Shown here: positions 17,828-32,046 of the stretch, in pieces
How positions within the stretch are numbered: the first letter of the stretch is position 1
Layout: each line of letters starts with the position of its first letter
Source of the DNA: Rhizobium sp. Q54
GTDB taxonomy: Bacteria; Pseudomonadota; Alphaproteobacteria; UBA828
Assembly: GCA_945892755.1 (NCBI GenBank)
Contig: CAMDDO010000036.1
Coordinates: forward strand, 1-32,046
DNA length: 32,046 bases
Direction of reading: 5' to 3'
Notes under the pieces: model-generated
What the model saw: the letters and a program-made list of their open reading frames with translations, nothing else
Databases searched by the model: none
What the model was told of the DNA's origin: nothing
Program-made: the position numbers and the translations under genes

Positions 17828-20140
17828 CTATTCCTCTAGCATCGCCCGCAGCACTCTTTCCGGTGTCAGCGGCAGGCGCGTGATGGACTTGCCGATGGCA
17901 TTGGCGACCGCGTTGGCGATGGCGGCTGCCGCGCCAACCAGCGGCGGCTCGCCAATGCCGCGCGCGCCGAAGGGGTGCGAGGCTTCGGGCTTCTCGATTA
18001 GCACGCACTCGATTTTCTTGGGTACTTCGAGCGCGCTCGGAATCTTGTAATCCATGAAGGAGGGGTTCGCGAGCCGGCCGTCCTCGAACACCATGTCCTC
18101 GAACAAACCATAGCCCAGGCCTTGGGCGAAGCCGCCTTCGATTTGCCCAACCGTCGCACCCGGATTGATCGCGCGCCCGACATCGTGCACGCAGACCGCG
18201 CGCATGATCTCCACCGCGCCCGTCACCTCGTCGATCTCGACCTCCACCACCTGCGCGCCGAAGGTATAAATGCCGACCGCCTCGAACGACAGCCAGCCCG
18301 ACATTTTGGTGTGGCTCTTATCCATGGCGTGGCTCGCCATGACCGCGCTCGAGCCCGTCACCGGACCCCCCACCGCCCAGATCGAACGCGCGGCGACATC
18401 GGCGAAACTCACTTCGGCATTGCGCCGCGAACCGCCCGTGACCACGACCCGCCCGCCGGGCGCGAGCGAGACCTCATCGCGCGTGACGCCGAGCATGGCG
18501 GCGGCGTGCTCGATGATTTGATCGCGCACCTTGAACGCCGCCTCGCCAACCGCCTTGCCGACCATGAAGGTGACACGGCTGGCATTGGTGCCCGAATTAT
18601 AGGGTGCGGAATCGGTGTCGGGCGTCGCGAGGTTGATCTGCTCGACCGGCAGTTGAAACGCCGAGGCCGCCATCTGCGCGAGCGCCGTATCCGAGCCCTG
18701 GCCAATATCGACCGCGCCGACCTGCACCGCGATGGTGCCGTCGTTTTGCAAGCGCACGATCGCGCCGGTCGAAAGGAAGGCCGAGGAATGCGCCATGGCG
18801 GCAACGCCGCGCCCGCGCCTTTTGCCAAGCGGCGCCGGCGCCAAAGGCTTTATCCAGCCTGCGCGATCGCGAGCGGTCTCGAGGGCTTCAACCAGCGTGC
18901 TTTCCGTCACCGCCTGGCCGCCGAACCAGCGCGCGCCCTTGGGCAGCGCGTTCTTGATGCGAAACTCGATCGGGTCCATGCCGAGTTTCTTGGCGAGCGC
19001 ATCCATTTGGGATTCGCTCGCGAAGGTCATTTGCGGGTTGCCGAAACCACGAAACGCCCCGGCGCGCATGCGGTTGGTATAGACCGCATGGCCTTCGCAA
19101 TGGACGTTCGGAATGTCATACGGCCCGCGCACGAAATAGAGCGCGAAATTCATCACCGCCGGGCTGTCATCGGCATAGGCGCCGCCGTCGAACCAAAGCT
19201 CGCATTCGCGCGCGACCAGGCGCCCTTCCCTGGTCGCGCCGGTCTTGAGCCTGATCCAACCCGGATGGCGCGAACGCATGGCGGTCATGTCTTGGTTACG
19301 CGAGAGCACAAGCCTGACCGGCGCGCGCGCCTTCTTGGCCAACAAGACGGCGATCGGCTCGATGGTCGCCTCCGACTTGCCGCCGAAGCCGCCGCCGACG
19401 CGCGGCGCGATGCAGCGGATCTTGGTCATCGGAAGGCCGAGGCATTCGTGCAAATTGGCTTGCGTGCGGAAAATGCTTTGGGTCGAGGACCAGACCGTGA
19501 CCTTGCCCGAGGGATCGAACGCGGCGAGCGCCGCGCAGGGCTCCATATAGGCGTGGTATTGCGCGGCGATCGCATAAGTCTCCTCGACCACGGCATCGGC
19601 CATGGCGAAGCCCTTCGCCGGATCGCCCTGCGTCGCGATCGAATGGGCGAGCAGATTGCCGCGCCCGACCGGCGCGTCGTAGATCTTGGTGTATTTGGCG
19701 AAATCCTCGTGCAGCAGCGGCGCGCCGTCGCGTAGCGCCTCTTCGATGGTGGTCACCGCCGGCAGAGGCTGATAGCGCACCTCGATCAATTGCGCCGCGC
19801 GCCGCGCGGTCTCGACATCGATCGCCGCGACCGCCGCGACCGGTTCGCCGATATAGCGCACCTTGGCTTTGGCGATCGCGGTCTCGTCCTTCACCACGAG
19901 GCCCATATAGCGGAACTCGATATCATCGCCCGTTACCACCGCGCGCACGCCGGGCAGCGCCATCGCCTCCGTTATGTCATAACCGAGGATGCGCGCATGG
20001 GCGTGCGGGCTTTGCACGATCGCGCCGTGCAACATGCCGGCCATCACCATGTCGCCCGCATAGAGCGCGGCGCCGGTCGCTTTTTCGCCAGCCTCGCGAC
20101 GCGGCAGACTGAGGCCAATGGGAGCACCGGGTGCGTTCAT
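17828..20140 (-). CDS. Molybdenum hydroxylase large subunit (xanthine dehydrogenase family)
   Basis: A 770-residue molybdopterin-binding subunit that hydroxylates an aromatic or aldehyde carbon with water as oxygen donor. The N-terminal hammerhead domain has EKATGAALYAGDMVMAGMLHG. Cofactor motifs are RVGGGFGGKSEATIEP, MRAGAFRGFGNPQ and the GARGIGEPPLVGAAAAIAN segment with the catalytic Glu. The AFRGFG loop lacks the Cys of CO dehydrogenase (the CSFR-type loop), so it is not CoxL. The start at 20140 overlaps the iron-sulfur subunit by four bases (ATGA). The substrate is not readable; known relatives act on nicotinate, isoquinoline, aldehydes or 4-hydroxybenzoyl-CoA. Confidence 0.9.
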   Translation of the reverse strand: MNAPGAPIGLSLPRREAGEKATGAALYAGDMVMAGMLHGAIVQSPHAHARILGYDITEAMALPGVRAVVTGDDIEFRYMGLVVKDETAIAKAKVRYIGEPVAAVAAIDVETARRAAQLIEVRYQPLPAVTTIEEALRDGAPLLHEDFAKYTKIYDAPVGRGNLLAHSIATQGDPAKGFAMADAVVEETYAIAAQYHAYMEPCAALAAFDPSGKVTVWSSTQSIFRTQANLHECLGLPMTKIRCIAPRVGGGFGGKSEATIEPIAVLLAKKARAPVRLVLSRNQDMTAMRSRHPGWIRLKTGATREGRLVARECELWFDGGAYADDSPAVMNFALYFVRGPYDIPNVHCEGHAVYTNRMRAGAFRGFGNPQMTFASESQMDALAKKLGMDPIEFRIKNALPKGARWFGGQAVTESTLVEALETARDRAGWIKPLAPAPLGKRRGRGVAAMAHSSAFLSTGAIVRLQNDGTIAVQVGAVDIGQGSDTALAQMAASAFQLPVEQINLATPDTDSAPYNSGTNASRVTFMVGKAVGEAAFKVRDQIIEHAAAMLGVTRDEVSLAPGGRVVVTGGSRRNAEVSFADVAARSIWAVGGPVTGSSAVMASHAMDKSHTKMSGWLSFEAVGIYTFGAQVVEVEIDEVTGAVEIMRAVCVHDVGRAINPGATVGQIEGGFAQGLGYGLFEDMVFEDGRLANPSFMDYKIPSALEVPKKIECVLIEKPEASHPFGARGIGEPPLVGAAAAIANAVANAIGKSITRLPLTPERVLRAMLEE

Positions 20141-20613
20141 GGCGCGAGCCTCGACGCGGCAAGGCTGATCGCTTCGATCACTTTCGCATAGCCCGAACAG
20201 CGACACAGATTGCCGGAGATCGAATGGCGGATGTCATCGTCGCTCGGTCGCTTGTTCTCCGTCAGCAAGGCGGTTGCCTGGATGATCATGCCCGGCATGC
20301 AGAATCCGCATTGGATCGCCCCGGCATCGAGGAACGCTTGCTGCACCGGGCTGAGCGTGTCGCCCTGCGCCAGGCCTTCGACCGTGACGATCTCGACGCC
20401 CGGCAAGGTGGCCGCAAGCGCGAGACAGGCACGGGCCGGCGCGCCATCGACCAACACCGTGCATGAGCCGCACACGCCTTGCTCGCAGCCGTTCTTTGTG
20501 CCGGTCAGGCCAAGATCATCGCGCAATACCGCCATCAACGTGCGCGTCGCCGGCACCGACACGCGATGCGTCGCGCCATTCACCTTGAACTCGACCGCCA
20601 CGCGCTCGCTCAT
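20137..20613 (-). CDS. [2Fe-2S] subunit of the molybdenum hydroxylase
   Basis: A 158-residue electron-transfer subunit with two [2Fe-2S] clusters. The ferredoxin-like N-domain carries NGCEQGVCGSCTVLVDG and a fourth Cys in ARACLAL. The helical C-domain carries QCGFCMPGM and NLCRCSGY. This is the usual small subunit of xanthine dehydrogenase-type enzymes. It overlaps both neighbours by four bases, so the three subunits are translated together. Confidence 0.94.
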   Translation of the reverse strand: MSERVAVEFKVNGATHRVSVPATRTLMAVLRDDLGLTGTKNGCEQGVCGSCTVLVDGAPARACLALAATLPGVEIVTVEGLAQGDTLSPVQQAFLDAGAIQCGFCMPGMIIQATALLTENKRPSDDDIRHSISGNLCRCSGYAKVIEAISLAASRLAP

Positions 20614-21455
20614 CGTGCGTCCTTCGCCTGGGCCGCGCGGATCGCGCGCTTGACCAGGCGTGGAATCAAGCGCCTTCGATAGTCGGCACTGCCGCGCACA
20701 TCGTCGAGCGGGTCACTGGCCGCGACCAATAGGGCGCCCGCGTCGTTGATTGCCGCATCGCTCAATTGGCCGGCCTGTAATTCCGCCTCGGCCTCGGCCG
20801 AGCGCACCGGCACCGGCCCGACACCGCCGAGCGCGATCCGCACGCCCCCGCGCCATAGCGCAACCGCAACCGAAACGGTGGCGAAATCGCCCTCGACGCG
20901 CGCGAATTTTTCGTAGTGCGTGCGTGCCTGGTTCAGGCTCGGCGGCAAAATGATTGCCGCCACGATTTCGCCTTGGCCAAGGGCGGTGGTGAGAAAGCCT
21001 TGGAAAAAATCACTGGCCGGAATCTCGCGTTTGCCTTTGGGCCCAACCGCCTCGATCACAGCGTCAAGCGCGACCAGCGCCGGCGGATAGTCCGCGCTCG
21101 GATCGCCATGCGCCACGGCGCCGCCGATCGTGCCACGATTGCGGATCGCCTCATGACCGATCCGCCCAGCGGCCTGGGCCAACAGCCGATGACCGTCGCG
21201 CAGCACGTCGCTCCGCGCCAACCCAGCGTGTGTGGTCATCGCGCCAATCCGAACCGATCCGTCGGACCGCTTCTCGATCCCCTTCAACGCCGCGATGCGA
21301 TGCAGAGAAATGATCTGGCTCGGGCTCAAAAGGTCGGCATTCAGCATGGCGACCAGGGTTTGCCCGCCGGCGAGCGGGCGCGCCTCGTCATCGGCCGCGA
21401 GAAGGCGGATAGCCTCGTCGAGGCGCTCGGGGGCATGAAAGCGGGTCGTCGTCAT
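20610..21455 (-). CDS. FAD-binding subunit of the molybdenum hydroxylase
   Basis: A 281-residue FAD subunit of the hydroxylase, handing electrons to the final acceptor. The FAD contacts are LAGGQTLVAMLNADL near residue 30 and RNRGTIGGAVAHGDPSADYP near 110. The C-terminal region is the usual CO dehydrogenase flavoprotein type. It is the first gene of the three-gene operon (FAD, then [2Fe-2S], then Mo subunit). It is divergent from a VOC protein gene, with a 77-bp gap that must carry both promoters. Confidence 0.93.
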   Translation of the reverse strand: MTTTRFHAPERLDEAIRLLAADDEARPLAGGQTLVAMLNADLLSPSQIISLHRIAALKGIEKRSDGSVRIGAMTTHAGLARSDVLRDGHRLLAQAAGRIGHEAIRNRGTIGGAVAHGDPSADYPPALVALDAVIEAVGPKGKREIPASDFFQGFLTTALGQGEIVAAIILPPSLNQARTHYEKFARVEGDFATVSVAVALWRGGVRIALGGVGPVPVRSAEAEAELQAGQLSDAAINDAGALLVAASDPLDDVRGSADYRRRLIPRLVKRAIRAAQAKDAR

Positions 21456-21532
21456 TCCGGCCCAGCTTGTTATGCTGGCGCGGTTCTGGCAACTGGTTCG
21501 ATCAGGTAGCCGGCAATCAGGGAGACACCATC

Positions 21533-22066
21533 ATGAGCAGACTTTTTGGCGCGATCCGGCAGAACGGCTATGTCGTGAAAGATATTCAGGCCGCCATGCG
21601 CCATTGGTCCGAGGTGATCGGGGTCGGCCCGTGGTTTTACAACGAGGCCGTACCCCTGCTTGATTTCACCTATAAAGGCACGCCGGCCGCGCCGATCTGC
21701 TCGGTCGCCTTCTCCAATTCCGGCCCGCTTCAGATCGAGCTGATCCAGCAGCGCAACGACGCGCCGACCCTGTTTCGCGATTTCCTCGCGGCCGGCCATG
21801 AGGGGCTGCAACATTTCGCCTATTGGAGCGAGAATTTCGATGCCGATCGGGCCAAGGCGCTCGCGCTCGGTTACCGGGTCGGCCATGAAGGCTCGACCGG
21901 CAAATACGGCCCCTTCACCTATTTTCAGACCGAGAGCCATCCCGGCACTGTGGTCGAGCTCTCCTCGGTCATCGGGATCAAGAAAAAACTCTTCGCCTAT
22001 ATCGCGGATGCCGCCGAGCAATGGGATGGCCGCGATCCAATTCGCGCCTTCCCGAAGCTGGACTAA
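21533..22066 (+). CDS. VOC-fold (glyoxalase/epimerase-like) protein
   Basis: A 177-residue member of the vicinal oxygen chelate superfamily, closest in look to methylmalonyl-CoA epimerase-like proteins. It opens MSRLFGAIRQNGYVVKDIQA, followed by AMRHWSEVIGVGPWFY, then LQIELIQQRND and HFAYWSENFD, with FQTESHPGTVVELS at the end of the second module. His and Glu metal ligands are plausible (GLQHFAYW and TVVELS). The start at 21533 has GGGAGA upstream. The reaction is unknown. It overlaps the convergent amidohydrolase gene by four bases. Confidence 0.82.
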   Translation: MSRLFGAIRQNGYVVKDIQAAMRHWSEVIGVGPWFYNEAVPLLDFTYKGTPAAPICSVAFSNSGPLQIELIQQRNDAPTLFRDFLAAGHEGLQHFAYWSENFDADRAKALALGYRVGHEGSTGKYGPFTYFQTESHPGTVVELSSVIGIKKKLFAYIADAAEQWDGRDPIRAFPKLD

Positions 22067-23364
22067 CGCGGCATCAGCGCGGGCGGAGCCTTGGTCTTGC
22101 GCGCGAAGTCGGTCGTGGCGGGCCGACCCGGCAGGTTGAGCCGCGCGTCCATGCGCGGGCCTTCGGCGATCACCTTGCCACGGCGCACGACAAAGAGACG
22201 TGGCGGACGATTGCGGATCGCCTCGCTCGGCGAAGCCGCCTGCAAGACGACGAGGTCACCATGGCAACCGGGCGCGAGGCCATAGCCCTCGAGGCCGAGC
22301 GCGCGCGCGGGGTTCTCGGTCACCGCCTTGAAGCAGAGCGCCAGTTGATCATGCCCGGCCATCTGGCCGACATGCGCGCCCATATGGGCGACATCCAACA
22401 TATCGCCGCCATTGAGCGGGCCCCAGGGGTCCATCGCCGAATCCTGACCGAACGAGACATTGACGCCGGCCGCCATCAGCTCCGGCACGCGCGTCATGCC
22501 ACGCCGCTTCGGATAGGTGTCGTGCCGTCCCATCAAGAGAATGTTCGCGGTCGGGTTGGCGACCGCGTGAATACCCGCCTCGGCGATCAGCGGGATCAAT
22601 TTGCTCGCATAATAGTTATCCATCGAATGCATCGAGGTCAGGTGCGAGCCGGTGACGCGGCCCTGAAGGCCAAGCCGTACCGTCTCGGCCGCCAGCGTTT
22701 CGATATGGCGCGAATGCGGGTCGTCGCTTTCGTCGCAATGCAGATCGACGCGAAGGCCGCGCTTCGCCGCGATCTCGCACAACAGGCGCACGGACTCCGC
22801 GCCCGCCGCCATGGTGCGCTCGAAATGCGGAATACCGCCGACGACGTCGACGCCCATCTCAAGCGCCTTCTCGAGATTTTTCACGCCGACCGGCGAACGC
22901 AAATAGCCGTCCTGGGGAAAGGCGACGAGCTGAAGGTCGATATAGTCCTTCACGCGCCGCCGCACCTCGAGCAGCGCCTCGACATCGAGCAACGTCGGAT
23001 CGGTCGTATCGACATGGCTGCGGATCGCCAAGAGACCGCGCCCAACCGCCCAGTCGCAATATTCGAGCGCGCGCTCGACATACCAATCATGGGTCATGTG
23101 AGGCTTCATCTCGCCCCAGAGCTGAATGCCCTCGAGCAGCGTGCCGGTGCGGTTGTAGCGCGGGAAGCCGACCGAGAGCGTCGCATCCATGTGGAAATGC
23201 GCATCGACGAAGGGCGGCGTGACCAAGCAGCCCGTCGCGTCGATCTCGCGCGCGCCTTGCGCCTTGAGCGCGGGTTCCGCGGCCGCGATCTTGCCGCCCT
23301 TGATGCCGATATCGATTCCCGTCCGCCCATCGGGCAGATTGGCCCGCCGCACGATCAAGTCCAT
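22063..23364 (-). CDS. Cytosine deaminase-like amidohydrolase
   Basis: A 433-residue amidohydrolase of the cytosine deaminase/N-isopropylammelide type, which hydrolyses C-N bonds of heterocycles using a metal. Ligand motifs are HFHMD (His56, His58), DLHCDESDDPHSRH, GSHLTSMHSMDN and the catalytic-Asp stretch FGQDSAMDPWGPLNGGD. They match CodA's HVHLD, HCDEIDD and GHDDVFDPW in order. The start at 23364 follows GGAGG; upstream in-frame codons overlap the next gene and are unlikely. It is 28 bases after the acetamidase/formamidase gene in the same direction, forming a two-gene operon for a cyclic or amidine-like nitrogen compound. The exact substrate is not readable. Confidence 0.87.
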   Translation of the reverse strand: MDLIVRRANLPDGRTGIDIGIKGGKIAAAEPALKAQGAREIDATGCLVTPPFVDAHFHMDATLSVGFPRYNRTGTLLEGIQLWGEMKPHMTHDWYVERALEYCDWAVGRGLLAIRSHVDTTDPTLLDVEALLEVRRRVKDYIDLQLVAFPQDGYLRSPVGVKNLEKALEMGVDVVGGIPHFERTMAAGAESVRLLCEIAAKRGLRVDLHCDESDDPHSRHIETLAAETVRLGLQGRVTGSHLTSMHSMDNYYASKLIPLIAEAGIHAVANPTANILLMGRHDTYPKRRGMTRVPELMAAGVNVSFGQDSAMDPWGPLNGGDMLDVAHMGAHVGQMAGHDQLALCFKAVTENPARALGLEGYGLAPGCHGDLVVLQAASPSEAIRNRPPRLFVVRRGKVIAEGPRMDARLNLPGRPATTDFARKTKAPPALMPR

Positions 23365-23392
23365 TGTCGCTCCCTCCGGGTTCTCTCGCTTC

Positions 23393-24352
23393 TCAGTCGA
23401 ACACGACGCGCGGCAAATAGCACGACACCACCCAATTGGGCCGATCGACGATCTCGCTGATACGCAAATCGGCGCACACGCTGCACAGCATATAGGCGTG
23501 AGCCGCATCCATGCCGCGCCATTTGCCGAGCCGCTCGATCATGCCGCGTACCGCGTTCTTCGAGGCCTCCATCAGATCAGGACCAATTCCCGTGGTGACC
23601 TCATAGCCTTTGACGTCGAGATGGCGCGACACCGGGCCAGGCGTCTCGAAACGCGGGAAGCGCAGGCGCTCGCCCTTCACCAATTCGATCTTGGCCGTCA
23701 CGCTCGCGATCGATTCTATCGCGGTGCCACAGACCTCGCCATCGCCTTGCGCGCAGTGCGGATCGCCAATCGAAAACAGCGCGCCTTTTACTTGCACCGG
23801 CAAATAGAGCGACACGCCGAAGCTGAGATCGCGAATATCCATATTGCCGCCGCTGTCATAGGGCGGGATGGTCGAGTGGCTGCCTGCTTCGGCGCGCGCC
23901 ACGCCGATCGTGCCGCAGAACGGCTTCAAGGGCACGCGCGCGAGGCTCGACATCGCCGCGGGCTGCCTAAAGCTCGTGTCGTAGGACCAGATGTGGAGCG
24001 AGGCCTCCGGAAAATCCTCGGCGAGCAGGCCGAAGCCCGGCACGATGCCGGTCCACGCCCAGCCAACGCCGGCGAACTCCAAGAGCGTCACTTTGAGCGC
24101 ATCGCCCGGCTCGGCGCCGTCGACATAGACCGGCCCGGCGATCGGGTTGACGCGCGCGAAATCGAGCGTGACCAGCGCGGCGGCGGTCGAACTCTTGCTC
24201 AGCTGACCACACAGCGCATCGATATCCTTGAACTCGACGGTTTCGCCCGGCGCGATGGTCAGCGCGGGTTTTCGGGCCTTGTCCCAATTAAGATGCTGGT
24301 GCGCGGCGTGGATCGTATGGTGGCCCCGCTTGCCCGTCGCGGACTTGTCCAT
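23393..24352 (-). CDS. Acetamidase/formamidase family protein
   Basis: A 319-residue amidase of the FmdA/AmdA family, which hydrolyses short amides to ammonia and an acid. It opens with HHTIHAAHQHLNWD, then GDALKVTLLEF, PPYDSGGNMDIRDL and GDPHCAQGDGEVCGTAIE. These are the metal-site and active-site blocks of the family. The Cys in GDPHC stands where many members have Ala, a small difference. It lies upstream of the amidohydrolase on the same strand, so hydrolysis of a ring followed by amide cleavage is a plausible two-step route; that is inference. It is divergent from the flavoprotein gene. Confidence 0.87.
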   Translation of the reverse strand: MDKSATGKRGHHTIHAAHQHLNWDKARKPALTIAPGETVEFKDIDALCGQLSKSSTAAALVTLDFARVNPIAGPVYVDGAEPGDALKVTLLEFAGVGWAWTGIVPGFGLLAEDFPEASLHIWSYDTSFRQPAAMSSLARVPLKPFCGTIGVARAEAGSHSTIPPYDSGGNMDIRDLSFGVSLYLPVQVKGALFSIGDPHCAQGDGEVCGTAIESIASVTAKIELVKGERLRFPRFETPGPVSRHLDVKGYEVTTGIGPDLMEASKNAVRGMIERLGKWRGMDAAHAYMLCSVCADLRISEIVDRPNWVVSCYLPRVVFD

Positions 24353-24444
24353 CGGCTTTCCTTGTCTTGCTCGTTCAGGGCAAGCGTAGCATCGCTCGAA
24401 GGCACTTTGTAGGATGCATGAGCAGGGCAGTGGGAGCGCACAGG

Positions 24445-25767
24445 ATGAACCGGACGGTTGGGCTGTTTCCGAAAGAGGATGCGACCAATGGCTGGAGCCG
24501 TATCCTGCCGGCGCGCGCGCCGGCGCCACGGCTCAAGGGCGATCGGCGCGCCGATTGGCTGGTCATCGGGGCGGGCTTTGCCGGGCTCGCGGCAGCGCGC
24601 CGTCTGGCCGAGAATCGGCCCAATGACTCGATCGTGTTGATCGATGCCCATGAGGTGGGCGAAGGCGCGTCGGGGCGGAATTCAGGTTTTGCCATCGACC
24701 TGCCGCACAATGTCGGCGGCGATTTCGCCGAGCTCGAAGGCTCGCAGCGCTATATCCGGCTGAGCCGCGCCGCGATCGCCGCGCTCGAGGTCGCGGTGGT
24801 GCGCCATGGCATCGAATGCGGTTGGCGGCAGCGCGGCAAATATCACGGCTGCTCCTCGATCAAGGGTCATCGCGAGGTGCTTGAGCCGTTCGCCAAGGAA
24901 TTATCGGCACTGGGCGAACCGTTCCGCTGGCTTGATCGCGCCGCTTTGGCCAAGGAACTCGGCACGAACTATTTCCATTCGGCGCTCTATACGCCGGGCT
25001 GCGTGCTGGCCAATCCGGCCGCGCTGGTGCGCGGCTTGGCGAGGAGCTTACCGGACAACGTAACGCTGCATGAGCACACGGCGGTCACGTCGTTCAGCGC
25101 CAATGGCGCGATCCGCGCCGAGACCCCGCATGGCAAGATCGAAGCGAAAGGCGCCATCCTTGCCGTGAACGGCTGGGCCAAAGCGTTCGGGTTTTTCGAG
25201 CAGAGCCTGATGACCATGGCGGCCTATGCCAGTTTGAGCCGGCCGCTGAGCGATTCCGAACACGCGCTCTTGGGCGGCATAGCCGATTGGGGCCTCACGC
25301 CCGCCAATGCGCTGGCCGGCGTGACCATGCGCTATACGCCCGAGCGGCGCATTCTGGTGCGGCAACGCTTTTGCTATGCGCCACGCTTCACGCGACCCGC
25401 CGGTGAATGGCAGAAAGTGCGCGCCGACCATGAACGCATCTTGCATGCCCGCTTCGCGATGCTGCCGAACGTCACGATCGAGCACACCTGGCGCGGCTTC
25501 GTCTGTCTATCGCGCAATCAGGCGCCGGGCTTTGGCCGCGTTGCGCCCAATCTTTATGCCGCGGTCTGCCAGAACGCGGTCGGCGTGACCAAGGGCACGA
25601 TCGGCGGCCTGCTCGCGGCCGATCTGGCGACGGGCCGAGACAATTCATTGATCGCCGACATGGAAAGCCTGGGCACACCGGCACGCCTGCCGCCGCGCCC
25701 GTTCCTCGATCTCGGCGTGCGGGCACGCTTCGCCGCCGAGCTTTGGCGCTGGCGCTCCGAGCGATAG
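24445..25767 (+). CDS. FAD-dependent oxidoreductase (DAO/OrdL-like amine oxidase)
   Basis: A 440-residue flavoprotein of the D-amino-acid oxidase superfamily, resembling gamma-glutamylputrescine oxidoreductase and OrdL. The dinucleotide-binding motif is WLVIGAGFAGLAAARRL (GxGxxG at residues 42-47), followed by EVGEGASGRNSGFAI, which holds the FAD loop. C-terminal family blocks are HTWRGFVCLSRNQAPGFG and NAVGVTKGTIGGLLAADL. It probably oxidises an amine or amino acid to an imine. The start at 24445 has GGGAG upstream; an earlier ATG at 24418 is possible. It is 8 bases before the redoxin-oxygenase gene and likely co-transcribed. Confidence 0.86.
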   Translation: MNRTVGLFPKEDATNGWSRILPARAPAPRLKGDRRADWLVIGAGFAGLAAARRLAENRPNDSIVLIDAHEVGEGASGRNSGFAIDLPHNVGGDFAELEGSQRYIRLSRAAIAALEVAVVRHGIECGWRQRGKYHGCSSIKGHREVLEPFAKELSALGEPFRWLDRAALAKELGTNYFHSALYTPGCVLANPAALVRGLARSLPDNVTLHEHTAVTSFSANGAIRAETPHGKIEAKGAILAVNGWAKAFGFFEQSLMTMAAYASLSRPLSDSEHALLGGIADWGLTPANALAGVTMRYTPERRILVRQRFCYAPRFTRPAGEWQKVRADHERILHARFAMLPNVTIEHTWRGFVCLSRNQAPGFGRVAPNLYAAVCQNAVGVTKGTIGGLLAADLATGRDNSLIADMESLGTPARLPPRPFLDLGVRARFAAELWRWRSER

Positions 25768-27504: not shown

Positions 27505-28323
27505 TCAGCCATGCTGCTTCAAATAACCGGCGACGTCGAAGACGTCGTCCCGAATGTCATAGGCATATCGGCCGGACTGTACGGCGTCCCAAATCTCGTC
27601 ATATTCGAGCGGGCTGACCGAATAATAGCGCATGCGGTCGCCGGCCCTGATCAACACGCCGTCCTCGGGGAAGCCCTTGTTGCGCGGCGTGGGCTCATAG
27701 AGGTTGACCGCAAGCCGGCCGATCAATTGGTAGCCGCCGGGGCTCGCGACCGGATAGGGCCCGGTCGAAAAACCGGCCAAGGCAAGGCAGCGCGCCGGGG
27801 TGTAGCTGCGCGGCACCTTGTATTTCGGCGCGGTGATCCATTTCGATGGGTCGAGCACGCGCGAAAAATAGCAACCCGGCGTGAAGCCGACGCAGACCAC
27901 CCAATAGTCCGACGCGGTGTGGGTCTCGATCACCTGCTCGACCGTCAGATTGTTGCAGCGCGCGACGAAATCGATGTTCTTGTCGACGTTGCAGCGACGC
28001 GCCGTCTCCGCGCTCCACGGATCGTCGTACCAGACCGGTAGCCGGACATAGCGCGACTTGAGCGTCGTCAGGTCTTTCACCCGAGGCAGGAGCGGGCGGA
28101 TCGCCGCCTCGAGACGGGCGTGAGAGGTCGCCTCGGCGTCAAACACCAAGCCGAGCTCGCGCAAGGAGGGAATGACCTCGATCACGCTCGAAATCGCCTC
28201 GGCCTCGAGCGCCTCCTTCAGCGCCAGTACGCGGAAATTCAGCAGGAGATTCGCCTCGTCGCCGAACTCGACCGCGAGATAGCGATCACCCAGCGGGCGG
28301 AAGATCGGCTCGTCATAGATCAT
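27505..28323 (-). CDS. PxpB-like protein (5-oxoprolinase/allophanate hydrolase subunit 1 family)
   Basis: A 272-residue member of the KipI/PxpB family. With PxpC and PxpA such proteins open cyclic lactams (5-oxoproline) using ATP. Family blocks are FRPLGDRYLAVEFGDEAN, LRELGLVFD, VGFTPGCYF, GFSTGPYPVASPGGYQLIGR and RAGDRMRYYSVS. It differs from typical PxpB by its length (about 40 residues longer) and by the stretch SRVLDPSKWITAPKYKVPRS in the middle. No pxpA (LamB/YcsF) is in the window. The start at 28323 overlaps the PxpC-like gene by four bases (ATGA). Divergence suggests a substrate other than 5-oxoproline; that is inference. Confidence 0.82.
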   Translation of the reverse strand: MIYDEPIFRPLGDRYLAVEFGDEANLLLNFRVLALKEALEAEAISSVIEVIPSLRELGLVFDAEATSHARLEAAIRPLLPRVKDLTTLKSRYVRLPVWYDDPWSAETARRCNVDKNIDFVARCNNLTVEQVIETHTASDYWVVCVGFTPGCYFSRVLDPSKWITAPKYKVPRSYTPARCLALAGFSTGPYPVASPGGYQLIGRLAVNLYEPTPRNKGFPEDGVLIRAGDRMRYYSVSPLEYDEIWDAVQSGRYAYDIRDDVFDVAGYLKQHG

Positions 28324-29339
28324 GCGCCCGCCCTCATGGTCGCCTCGGCCGCCTTGAGCGCGCGCCATTGCGCGAGGCCGATTTCGCGCGCCTGGTTCGC
28401 GCCGATCGCCTTGAAACGCAGCATGGCGCCAGGCACCAATTGGCCCATCTTGCCGAGATCGTTCGTGATCACGGTCGCGATCTTGGCATAGCCGCCCGCG
28501 GTCGGGTTCTCGACTCCCATGACGATCGGCTCGATACCGCCCGGCACCTGGATGCCGCCGATCGGGATCACGTCATCGACGATGTCAGTCGGGCCCGAGC
28601 CGGCATCGCGCACCAGATACGCCGGTCGCTCATGGAGGGCGAGCTTGGGGCCGATCAGACGCATGCCCATGCGATCCGAGACCGGCGAGAGCTTCCACTC
28701 GACGCCGAGGAAGGTCTCGACGCCTTCCGGCGTGAACATGAAATCCTGCGGCCCGAGCACGACGTGGATCTCATTCGGCCGCTCGGGCCAGGGCGCGAGA
28801 TCATCAGGTAATTTTCGCCCGGCGACACGGCCGGACGAGGCGCGGGGCGTCCCAAGGCTCAGGCGATCGCCCGCTTTCAACGCGCGGCCGCCGAGCCCGC
28901 CCTGGCTGCCGCGAATATAGGTCGCGCGGCTGTTAAGATAGAGCGGCACATCGATTCCGCCGGCAATGGCCAGATAGCCGCGCGCGCCGCGCTTGACATA
29001 GCCCAATGCGAGCGTCGCGCCGGCCTTGACCGGCACCGCCTCGAACATCGGCATTGGCTGGCCGTCGAGCGCCGGCGCCATATCCGCCCCGGTCAGCGCG
29101 ATCACCGTGTCCCGCTCAAAGCGCAGGGTCGGCCCGCGCAGCAGCATCTCCAGCCCGGCATCGCCCGGCGGCTCGCGGCTCAAGGGCGGCGGCGTCAGGC
29201 TGTTACCGACCAGAAGATTGCCGAGGGCGAGCGCGTAATAGTCCTGCGCGCCGGCGGGCGGAATGCCGCGCGACAAATAGCCCGGCCGACCGCCATCTTG
29301 CACCGTGGTCTGAATGCCCGCCTGTAGCACGTCGATCAT
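28320..29339 (-). CDS. PxpC-like protein (allophanate hydrolase subunit 2 family)
   Basis: A 339-residue KipA/PxpC family protein, partner of the PxpB-like subunit. It opens MIDVLQAGIQTTVQDGGRPG, then YLSRGIPPAGAQDYYALALG, LLRGPTLRF, ALTGADMAPALDG, GYLAIAGGIDVP and VLGPQDFMFTPEGVETFL. Relatives usually read NPPG before the LE.. block; here ten residues (SLTPPPLSRE, 29172-29201) are inserted between the N and PPG without a frameshift. It is 1 base overlapped (TGATG) with the ABC ATPase gene upstream. The gene order PxpC then PxpB is opposite to E. coli. Confidence 0.85.
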   Translation of the reverse strand: MIDVLQAGIQTTVQDGGRPGYLSRGIPPAGAQDYYALALGNLLVGNSLTPPPLSREPPGDAGLEMLLRGPTLRFERDTVIALTGADMAPALDGQPMPMFEAVPVKAGATLALGYVKRGARGYLAIAGGIDVPLYLNSRATYIRGSQGGLGGRALKAGDRLSLGTPRASSGRVAGRKLPDDLAPWPERPNEIHVVLGPQDFMFTPEGVETFLGVEWKLSPVSDRMGMRLIGPKLALHERPAYLVRDAGSGPTDIVDDVIPIGGIQVPGGIEPIVMGVENPTAGGYAKIATVITNDLGKMGQLVPGAMLRFKAIGANQAREIGLAQWRALKAAEATMRAGA

Positions 29340-30451
29340 CAAACGCCCTCGATCAGCACGCCGTTCGCATCGAACAGGCGAAGCGCGCTCGGATTTGCGC
29401 TCAACACGAGGCCCTTGCCAAGCGGATAGCGCGTCGCCGCGTCGGTTTCGATCTGGATGGCGTCCTGCTCGTGAAGGTAGCCGCCCTCGCCCACCGGCCG
29501 GCAGACAACGAAATTGACCCGGCCGAGATGCTCGGTCAACGCGACCTGGACCGGGAGGCCGGCCTCGCCCGACGCGCCAACCACCAACTCATGCGGCCTG
29601 ATGCCGACCAAGACCTCCCGCCCACCGGCCAGGCCAAGCCCATTCGGCGCCGGAAGGCTCGCCTTTGGCGCATCGACCGCGCGCAGCCGCCCGTCAAGCA
29701 ATCTCATGCGGAACAGGTTCATCGACGGGCTGCCGATGAAGCGCGCGACGAAACTATTGGCGGGGCGCGCATAGACCCGGTCGGGCCGATCGACTTGTTG
29801 CACCTTGCCGCCGCGCATGACCGCCAGCGTGGTCGAGAGCGTCATGGCCTCGGCTTGGTCGTGCGTGACATAGATGATCGTGACGCCGAGTGCCTGGTGC
29901 AGCCGGCCGAGCTCGATGCGCATCTGCTCGCGCAGCTTGAGATCGAGGTTCGACAGCGGCTCGTCCATCAGGAACACGCGGGGCTTCCTGATCATGGCGC
30001 GCCCGAGCGCGACGCGCTGCCGCTCGCCGCCCGATAGCTGCGCGGGCTTCTTGTGCAGAAGTTTCTCGATGCCGAGAATCGCCGCGGTCTCGCTCAGTCT
30101 TGTTTCGATCTCGGCCTTGGGCACGCGACGGTTCTTCAAATTGAACGTGATGTTCTGCGCGGCGCTCATATGCGGATAGAGCGCGTAATCCTGAAACACC
30201 ATGGCGATGTCGCGGTCGCGCGGCGAAAGCGCTGTGACGTCGCGCTCGCCGATGAACACGCGGCCTCGGCTCGGGTATTCGAAGCCGGCGATGATCCGCA
30301 GCAGCGTCGTCTTGCCGCAGCCTGACGGCCCGAGGATCGAAAAAAAGCTGCCCGGTTCGATCGCGAGGTCGACGCCATCGAGCGCGGCGATCTCGCCGCC
30401 GGCATAGGTTTTCGCGATGCCCTCGAGCCGAACGCCGACGATCTCGCTCAT
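29339..30451 (-). CDS. Sugar-type ABC transporter ATPase (UgpC/MalK family)
   Basis: A 370-residue importer ATPase of the MalK/UgpC family. Walker A is GPSGCGKTTLLRIIAG, the Q-loop is AMVFQDYALYPHMS, the signature is LSGGERQRVALGRAMIRKP, Walker B is RVFLMDEPLSNLDLK and the switch His is in YVTHDQAEAM. The C-terminal TOBE domain includes VGIRPHELVVG. The start at 30451 follows the permease stop by one base. Family members power uptake of sugars, glycerol phosphate and other polar solutes; specificity is set by a binding protein outside the window. Confidence 0.93.
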   Translation of the reverse strand: MSEIVGVRLEGIAKTYAGGEIAALDGVDLAIEPGSFFSILGPSGCGKTTLLRIIAGFEYPSRGRVFIGERDVTALSPRDRDIAMVFQDYALYPHMSAAQNITFNLKNRRVPKAEIETRLSETAAILGIEKLLHKKPAQLSGGERQRVALGRAMIRKPRVFLMDEPLSNLDLKLREQMRIELGRLHQALGVTIIYVTHDQAEAMTLSTTLAVMRGGKVQQVDRPDRVYARPANSFVARFIGSPSMNLFRMRLLDGRLRAVDAPKASLPAPNGLGLAGGREVLVGIRPHELVVGASGEAGLPVQVALTEHLGRVNFVVCRPVGEGGYLHEQDAIQIETDAATRYPLGKGLVLSANPSALRLFDANGVLIEGV

Positions 30452-30452
30452 G

Positions 30453-31268
30453 CTAGCGCAAGGCCCCCAGACTGACACCGCGCACCATCTCACGCTGCAA
30501 CAAGAATACCACGACGATCAGTGGCGCGAACGAGACCACCGCGCCCGCGGTCAGGAAGCCCCAATCGGTCTGGAATGGCGTGATCGTGCTGCCAAGCCTG
30601 ACCGGCAGCGTGACCCAGGTGTCTTTGGTAAGAAGAAAGGCGAACAGGAACTCGTTCCAGGCGAACACGAAGGTGAAGATAGTGGTCACCGCAATGCCGC
30701 CCTTGGTCAGTGGCATGACGATGAAAAAGAGAATCTTGAGCGGCTTCGCGCCATCCGCGCTGGCGGCTTCGTCGATCGATTTCGGCACCTCGGCGAAGAA
30801 GCCCTGCAACATCCAGATCGCGAACGGCAGCGAAAACGACAGATAGACGATGACCAGGCCCGGATAGGTGTCAAGCAGCTTGGCGCGGCTCAGGATCAGA
30901 TAGAACGGTACCACCACCGAGATCGGCGGCAGCATGCGAAGCGAGAGGATCCACATGCCGATCTTCTCGCGGCCCCTGAGCGAGGAGCGCGCCAGGGCAT
31001 AGGCCGCGAGCGAGCCCAAGAAGATCGACACAATCGTGGTGCCGCCCGCCACGCCCAAACTGTTCAGCAAATAAGTGCCGTAATTCTTGTCGCGAAACAG
31101 CTCGGCATAATTTTCGATCGTGGGCACGAAGGCGAAGGACGGCGTCAGGCCGGTCAGCCCGCCTTCGGGCTTCAATGAGGTCATCGCGGTCCAGGCGATC
31201 GGAAACATCCAGGCCGCGAGCACGACCAGGAGTGGCACCATCCAGAGCATGGCGGTCCTGCGCCGCAT
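30453..31268 (-). CDS. ABC transporter permease (MalG/UgpE type)
   Basis: A 271-residue inner-membrane permease with about six hydrophobic helices, the first being MLWMVPLLVVLAAWMFPIAW. The ATPase-coupling EAA loop reads DEAASADGAKPLKILFFIV. The N-terminal part has the MalG-type TSLKPEGGL and NYAELF segment. The start at 31268 has no strong ribosome-binding site but lies 4 bases after the previous stop, so coupling is likely. Partner of the other permease and the ATPase. Confidence 0.92.
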   Translation of the reverse strand: MRRRTAMLWMVPLLVVLAAWMFPIAWTAMTSLKPEGGLTGLTPSFAFVPTIENYAELFRDKNYGTYLLNSLGVAGGTTIVSIFLGSLAAYALARSSLRGREKIGMWILSLRMLPPISVVVPFYLILSRAKLLDTYPGLVIVYLSFSLPFAIWMLQGFFAEVPKSIDEAASADGAKPLKILFFIVMPLTKGGIAVTTIFTFVFAWNEFLFAFLLTKDTWVTLPVRLGSTITPFQTDWGFLTAGAVVSFAPLIVVVFLLQREMVRGVSLGALR

Positions 31269-31272
31269 AGCG

Positions 31273-32046
31273 CTAACGCCGCTCCATGCCGATCGCACCC
31301 TGGCGCGAGATGGCGCGGATCAGGAGCGTGATCACGATGGTGACGACGCCGAGCAGCACGAGCGAGGTGGCCGCCGCGTCGCCCATCTGGAAATTGACGA
31401 AGGCGCTTTCCCAGGTCAGCACGGGGAGCGTATAGGACGCATCGCCCGGCCCGCCTTGCGTCGTCGCCACGATGATCTCGAAGGCGCGCAGGAGATCGAT
31501 CAGGCGCAATAGAAGCACGATCACCAGCACCCGCTTCAGGAGCGGGATCGTGATCAAGAAGATCTGGCGGAACAGGCCGGTGCGATCGAGCTCCGCCGCC
31601 TCGTAGAGCGAGCGCGGCACGGCATACATGCCGGCGAGCACGATCAAAAACACAAACGGCGTCCATTGCCACACGTCGATCGCGATGATGGCGAACAGGG
31701 CGATGTCGGTATCGGAGAGCCAGCCGATCTTGTCGATACCGAGCAGGCCGAGCATGTAGTTGATCACGCCGAAATCGCGCTGGTACATGAAGCGCCACAT
31801 CACCGCGGCGACGATCGGCGCGACCAGGATCGGCGTGGTCAATAGCGTGCGCACGATCGACATGCCGGGCAGGTCGCGCAGCCGATGAACCCAGGCCGCC
31901 AGCACGAAGCCGAGCACGAACTCGACGCCGAGCGCGGTGAACGCGAAGACGAACATGCGCGAGAGCGCGATATGGAATTTCGGAGAGATGAACAGATAAT
32001 AGGCCACCTCGAACAATGGCAATTTTCGGCTGATATAGTGTTTTGA
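31273..32046 (-). CDS. ABC transporter permease (MalF/UgpA type), 5'-truncated by the window
   Basis: The C-terminal 257 residues of a MalF-type permease. The frame is open to the window edge (beginning SKHYISRKLPLFEVAYYLFI), so the first helix and true start are outside. About five membrane helices are visible, and the EAA loop is YEAAELDRTGLFRQIFLITI. The stop at 31273 is 4 bases before the second permease start. A substrate-binding protein gene probably lies beyond the right edge; it would help identify the cargo. Confidence 0.9.
   Translation of the reverse strand, partial: SKHYISRKLPLFEVAYYLFISPKFHIALSRMFVFAFTALGVEFVLGFVLAAWVHRLRDLPGMSIVRTLLTTPILVAPIVAAVMWRFMYQRDFGVINYMLGLLGIDKIGWLSDTDIALFAIIAIDVWQWTPFVFLIVLAGMYAVPRSLYEAAELDRTGLFRQIFLITIPLLKRVLVIVLLLRLIDLLRAFEIIVATTQGGPGDASYTLPVLTWESAFVNFQMGDAAATSLVLLGVVTIVITLLIRAISRQGAIGMERR

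Follow-up and report, generated by a model that had tools for sequence, protein, structure and literature searches.

An importer operon ending in a PxpC-PxpB pair

The stretch of DNA analyzed here (the window, 32,046 nucleotides) is the whole of contig CAMDDO010000036.1 (C36) of Rhizobium sp. Q54, a draft assembly of 117 contigs totalling 3.27 Mb that is 100% complete and 1.21% contaminated by the assessment tool's figures. A packed operon on the minus strand occupies the right end of the window. It encodes two permeases and an ATPase of an ATP-binding cassette (ABC) importer, followed by subunits like PxpC and PxpB. An importer operon ending in two lactam-opening-type subunits is mildly unusual, yet a known kind of arrangement. 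For the canonical enzyme, phosphorylation of 5-oxoproline is assumed for PxpB together with PxpC, and ring opening with dephosphorylation for PxpA (PMC13274462). The operon comprises the following features (ORF, open reading frame; IS, insertion sequence):

27505..28323, minus strand: PxpB-like subunit (CT_C_D), 272 amino acids, ATG at 28323; PF02682 at 162.3 bits on the longer ORF (cut-off 22.1)
28320..29339, minus strand: PxpC-like subunit (CT_A_B); PF02626 at 279.9 bits (cut-off 25)
29339..30451, minus strand (longer ORF to 30493): ABC ATPase of the MalK/UgpC type; PF00005 and PF17912 (OB_MalK)
30453..31268, minus strand (longer ORF to 31298): ABC permease, GlcU/MalG/UgpE-like; PF00528 at 63 bits
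31273..32001, minus strand: ABC permease (UgpA-like), 3' part, apparently cut by an IS; BPD_transp_1 (PF00528) at 57 bits
32002..32046, no strand assigned: right end of an IS5-like element, without match to the permease of relatives; TATT adjoins at 31998-32001

The genes overlap or nearly touch, as the first-pass annotation of this DNA had described. Read directly at the junctions, the ATPase stop and the PxpC start share TGATG, and the PxpC stop and the PxpB start share ATGA. A single base separates the stop of the second permease from the ATG of the ATPase, and four bases lie between the two permeases. The reading frames of the ATPase, the second permease, PxpC and PxpB are all open. Alignments of homologs back the PxpB start at 28323, with the longer ORF reaching 28368. 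The best NCBIfam match of the ATPase is UgpC at 399.7 bits, under its cut-off of 432, and no NCBIfam match of the second permease reaches its cut-off. None of the operon genes encodes a biotin carboxylase or a biotin carrier. A promoter scan returned 0 sites against 0.9 expected, and terminator-like sites numbered 7 against 4.1 expected (standard deviation 2.3).

The pair stands apart from canonical 5-oxoprolinase subunits

Both subunits miss the curated cut-offs of the canonical enzyme. The window PxpB scores 99.3 bits with TIGR00370 (PxpB, cut-off 145.55) and the window PxpC 193.4 bits with NF045499 (PxpC, cut-off 500). The urea carboxylase model TIGR02712 is likewise missed by PxpB, at 120.4 bits for a cut-off of 1303.85. 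TIGR00370 is also missed by the remaining three PxpB that the genome encodes and by that of a sister pair on G011:C65, and is passed by the PxpB of E. coli and Methylobacterium. In the careful PxpB tree, the window sequence forms one clade (100/99) with G011:C65 and with G002:C2 from a genome of the same genus. This clade is nested in a 15-row clade (100/98) together with the type found on contig C63 of the window genome and two actinobacteria. The PxpB of E. coli, Methylobacterium and A. lipoferum cluster with one another (100/100), apart from the window clade. A quick PxpC tree recovers the same three-row group (99). The deep joins of the PxpB and PxpC trees are unsure because several long branches meet there. 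Given the missed cut-offs and the separate grouping, the pair should not be filed as 5-oxoprolinase, and the divergence proposed in the first pass is thereby upheld. The pair may nonetheless work like one.

The order of the two genes is reversed relative to E. coli, as had been claimed, since the E. coli order is B-C-A. Among 51 adjacent pairs counted in same-family genomes (G000-G012), C before B was read only in the three pairs of the window clade. The counting script flags 6 of the 51 as C-first, of which G010:C35, G007:C16 and G002:C201 were discounted as tandem double sets. The preceding C was judged part of the first set, from the trees for G010:C35 and G007:C16 and by analogy for G002:C201. 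Residue 278 of PxpC is Glu in the three rows of the window clade. Outside the 15-row clade, 96% of rows have Asp at this position, and Asp is also found in E. coli, urea carboxylase, the two actinobacteria and all C63-type rows. At strongly conserved columns, counted by eye, the window agrees with the consensus formed by the remaining rows at 19 of 21 positions in PxpB and 50 of 57 in PxpC. Ratios of nonsynonymous to synonymous substitution rates (dN/dS) between G000 and G002 are 0.12 for PxpB and 0.18 for PxpC.

An insertion in PxpB had been pointed out in the first pass and is discarded as a special trait. All 66 non-canonical rows, two urea carboxylases included, fill at least 60% of the columns absent from the three canonical rows, two of which were trimmed to the matched domain, so the C-terminal part may be overstated. 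A wider spread of the window clade was considered and rejected on class, phylum and pattern scans. The class sample (385 genomes, E 1e-60) gave five matches, with the window clade only in its own genome and G002 and three of the C63 type at 44-47%; this sample is partial, the clade member G011 being absent from its matches. The phylum sample (398 genomes, E 1e-70) matched only the window's own genome, and a pattern scan of genome contigs found seven loci, two of which are known clade members.

The importer and its association with PxpB

The association of importer and pair, seen in the window as one tight gene run, recurs in relatives. Genome G002 carries an unbroken run of binding protein, permease, permease, ATPase, PxpC and PxpB, and PxpA is absent from the 16.7 kb that were read there. 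Its binding protein is of the SBP_bac_1 family. On G017:C183 (L197:5945-11191), the importer is orthologous, its binding protein being 71% identical. The gene after it encodes a PxpB (Pfam) of another clade, behind which no PxpC was found. The eight best matches of this PxpB (53-56%) all come from pairs adjoining biotin carboxylase. Because the same importer occurs with PxpB of two clades in G002 and G017, the link can be argued to be functional, and these gene neighborhoods support a real association between importer and PxpB.

The importer is of the sugar (CUT1) type. An ATPase and two permeases lie in the window and a family 1 binding protein is encoded on contig C72, although the place of this gene, which has an in-frame stop, in the window operon depends on a probable join of the two contigs. 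Reading the substrate from the binding protein was dropped, its matches to sugar-binding proteins being weak.

A probable insertion sequence within the operon

The permease reported at the right edge holds from 32001 leftward. The first 45 bases of its frame (32002-32046) have no counterpart in the permease of relatives and are the end of an IS; the alignment to the G002 and G017 permeases starts at YYLFIS. On the operon strand, these 45 bases end in TTCGAGGTGGCC, a near inverted match (1 mismatch in 12) of GGCTACCTCGAA at the end of C72. That end of C72 carries the binding protein gene (86% to G002), a permease start and, last, 107 bases belonging to the left end of the IS. The left-end stretch is present in four full copies and one of 28 bases, all at most 42 bases from contig ends, so that this multicopy element breaks contigs. 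When translated, its start matches several records, some of them annotated as transposases of the IS5 family (the best annotated row at 78%). The flank TATT is common to C72 and C36 and occurs in none of the four other left ends. Joined, the two flanks restore the G002 frame, and their alignment with G002 reaches 80.9% across 1705 columns. From these matches, we infer that C72 and C36 are contiguous.

The binding protein gene on C72 (L196:8402-9796) has a single in-frame TAG where G002 has TGG and G017 encodes Trp, and an amino-acid-type ABC importer set precedes it. The importer is probably disrupted in this assembly. The IS in the permease, the in-frame TAG of the binding protein and the low dN/dS against G002 (0.08 to 0.21 across the five genes or gene parts of the operon that were compared) together suggest that uptake was lost, and recently so. 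The first-pass annotation had proposed looking beyond the right edge for a binding protein and PxpA. The former was found on C72, provided that the join holds. A PxpA just past the edge is rejected, as the contig ends there, the last 10 kb of C72, its probable continuation, contain none, and G002 has none at this place. The edge also carries a caution, since the contig break that conceals the other operon genes most likely stems from a mobile element inserted into the operon.

PxpA is encoded elsewhere in the genome

No match to PxpA occurs anywhere in the window, in line with the first pass, but the genome-wide evidence does not support a meaningful lack. A LamB/YcsF family search of the genome found two PxpA genes, on C16 and C3, and searches for the PxpB and PxpC families found four pairs, on C16, C36 (the window), C46 and C63. 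Across G000-G012, PxpA lies within 3 kb of 11 of the 51 adjacent PxpB-PxpC pairs and is missing there from 40, a count that leaves out 13 single B or C genes and may inflate lone pairs where contig ends hide PxpA. A missing PxpA neighbor is therefore ordinary in this family. PxpB matches (E 1e-30) exceed PxpA matches (E 1e-10) in 12 of the 13 genomes, G012 having 2 against 3. Pairs are more numerous than PxpA in 10 of the 13 and equal in G004, G011 and G012. G001 is only 67% complete, and the PxpA of G012:C161 stands outside both the PxpA tree and the pair count, as do genomes G013-G020, which were searched for PxpB and PxpA and stand outside all trees. The excess of PxpB implies that PxpA is shared or that some PxpBC act without PxpA. 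The assembly of a widespread enzyme and the number of lactams that it covers thereby become testable questions.

The two PxpA genes have different surroundings. On C16 (L014:6113-10201), PxpA, a biotin carboxylase (Pfam), PxpB and PxpC are consecutive, and like sets occur in related genomes. On C3 (L015:6854-15001), a lone PxpA lies amid genes for an ABC importer, a cupin, a short-chain dehydrogenase/reductase and a zinc dehydrogenase; genes like HyuA and HyuB lie at a distance of about 3 kb. The C3 PxpA passes an NCBIfam PxpA subfamily cut-off (274.1 against 226 bits). At the sister pair on G011:C65, the minus strand carries HyuA- and HyuB-like genes, after which the plus strand carries PxpA-PxpC-PxpB and an ABC importer of the Liv type. 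The PxpA of this locus falls in the same 11-row clade (100/99) as that of C3. PxpA also adjoins pairs of the 15-row clade in both actinobacteria and in G009. Beside C63-type pairs it is found in G009 and G013 and, by match positions, in G015 and G020. On this comparative evidence, the C3 PxpA is the best candidate partner of the window PxpCB. G011:C107 (L171:429-6772) presents the mirror case of the window operon. There, PxpA comes after an ABC importer of the MalK type and has no PxpBC genes within 3 kb, although the same contig carries a C63-type pair about 11 kb onward.

HyuA-like genes recur close to PxpBC pairs at several loci of the window genome's family. Within the window itself, positions 17828-24529, close to the operon and on the same strand, hold molybdenum hydroxylase-like genes, a cytosine-deaminase-like amidohydrolase and a formamidase-like gene. 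These genes possibly form a catabolic cluster for nitrogen compounds.

Proposed mechanism and alternative explanations

We lean slightly towards interpreting the locus as a CUT1-type importer operon with a divergent PxpC-PxpB pair, in which a lactam-like solute would be taken up by the importer, activated by PxpCB and opened by a PxpA acting in trans. By analogy with PxpABC, activation would consume ATP, and the ring would be opened by a PxpA encoded elsewhere, with C3 as the best candidate. In the window genome, the uptake half appears to have been broken recently by the IS in the first permease and the stop in the binding protein gene, with PxpC and PxpB remaining open. The anatomy of the operon, the clade, the PxpA genes elsewhere, the IS ends with their matching flank and the stop codon are observed directly, and the contig join, the partnership in trans, the ATP-dependent activation and the loss of uptake are what we infer from them. 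Candidate substrates of the pair are 5-oxoproline or another lactam.

Several observations weigh against this interpretation. Seven strongly conserved PxpC columns are altered in the window. The binding protein of G002 weakly resembles sugar-binding proteins (best 1.6e-7, YcjN) and not known lactam binders. The stop and the IS could be artefacts of assembly or population, given a draft genome and a presumed contig join. PxpA of the C3 type adjoins other PxpBC pairs in G004, G005 and G008, which speaks against a fixed partnership. G002 has the pair without a C3-type PxpA, its best being at 42% and from a wider 13-row clade (96/96).

The locus might instead encode a drifted ordinary 5-oxoprolinase, with 5-oxoproline brought in by the importer and the reaction completed by any PxpA of the cell. 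The score of the C3 PxpA above its subfamily cut-off fits such a system, as do an amino acid ABC importer close to pxpABC in Methylobacterium and the uptake gene included in the pxpTABC operon of C. glutamicum (PMC13274462). The first-pass annotation would have taken the system as ordinary had PxpA been present elsewhere and the pair grouped firmly with 5-oxoprolinases. PxpA is indeed present, and the pair groups apart from the canonical enzymes. With the curated PxpB and PxpC cut-offs missed, the fully supported separation of the E. coli, Methylobacterium and A. lipoferum PxpB (100/100) and a sugar-type binding protein in G002, this explanation is possible and rather doubtful. That the whole operon is a decaying remnant with a broken importer and nonfunctional PxpCB seems unlikely. 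The operon carries two separate lesions upstream of PxpCB, which would agree with decay, and the IS may be polar. PxpC, PxpB, the ATPase and the second permease are nevertheless open, and dN/dS is low where compared, a measure with little power for recent loss.

Very unlikely in our assessment is a biotin-dependent carboxyltransferase, similar to urea carboxylase and served by a biotin carboxylase whose gene lies elsewhere in the genome. The window PxpB does score better against the urea carboxylase model than against the PxpB model (120.4 and 99.3 bits) and has the urea carboxylase residue, not the usual canonical one, at columns 124, 167, 168 and 175. Urea carboxylase is also the best PDB match of PxpC, C16 has PxpA, biotin carboxylase and PxpBC in a row, and Thermomicrobium has a biotin-carrier gene beside PxpBCA. 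However, the operon genes include neither biotin carboxylase nor carrier, PxpB columns 135, 166 and 171 keep the PxpB consensus where urea carboxylase departs from it, and urea carboxylases fall outside the window clade in a quick tree. A broader conjecture, which we regard as quite unlikely, is that the family runs a modular lactam-opening system. Several PxpBC pairs, some with importers of their own, would share a smaller pool of PxpA encoded elsewhere, and at least one such PxpA (G011:C107) would belong to its own importer operon. Given its C-before-B order and the clade-specific Asp278Glu in PxpC, the window pair would then be a specialised module for a lactam other than 5-oxoproline.

Comparison with known systems

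Among the literature matches listed, none describes an ABC-linked PxpCB without PxpA. A similar arrangement is on plasmid AZO_p2 of A. lipoferum 4B, where PxpB-PxpC are followed by an ABC ATPase, a binding protein and two permeases. Both loci combine PxpBC with an ABC importer, and on AZO_p2 PxpA is neither annotated in the stretch (the PLSDB annotation being incomplete) nor matched by PxpA queries. The plasmid locus differs by its B-before-C order, its PxpB of the E. coli group and the position of its importer downstream. The binding protein of G002 is 21-28% identical to plasmid-borne ones among the 15 of 62 records listed. The carboxyltransferase domain of urea carboxylase (3va7, 5i8i) has the same two subdomains, shares the long form of PxpB and is the best PDB match of PxpC, whereas the window has separate proteins of another clade without adjacent biotin genes.

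CUT1/MalFGK-type importers resemble the window importer in their MalK-like ATPase with an OB domain and two BPD_transp_1 permeases, and in the SBP_bac_1 protein of G002; the window importer differs in its linkage to PxpCB. PxpABC of E. coli and C. glutamicum likewise has two carboxyltransferase-like subunits encoded together, and the window genome contains PxpA of the same Pfam family. Unlike in PxpABC, the window subunits score under the equivalog cut-offs and belong to a separate clade. The window further departs from PxpABC by placing C before B, PxpA outside the operon and an ABC importer in place of a secondary transporter, and shares with pxpTABC of C. glutamicum (PMC13274462) the linkage of the enzyme subunits to an uptake gene.

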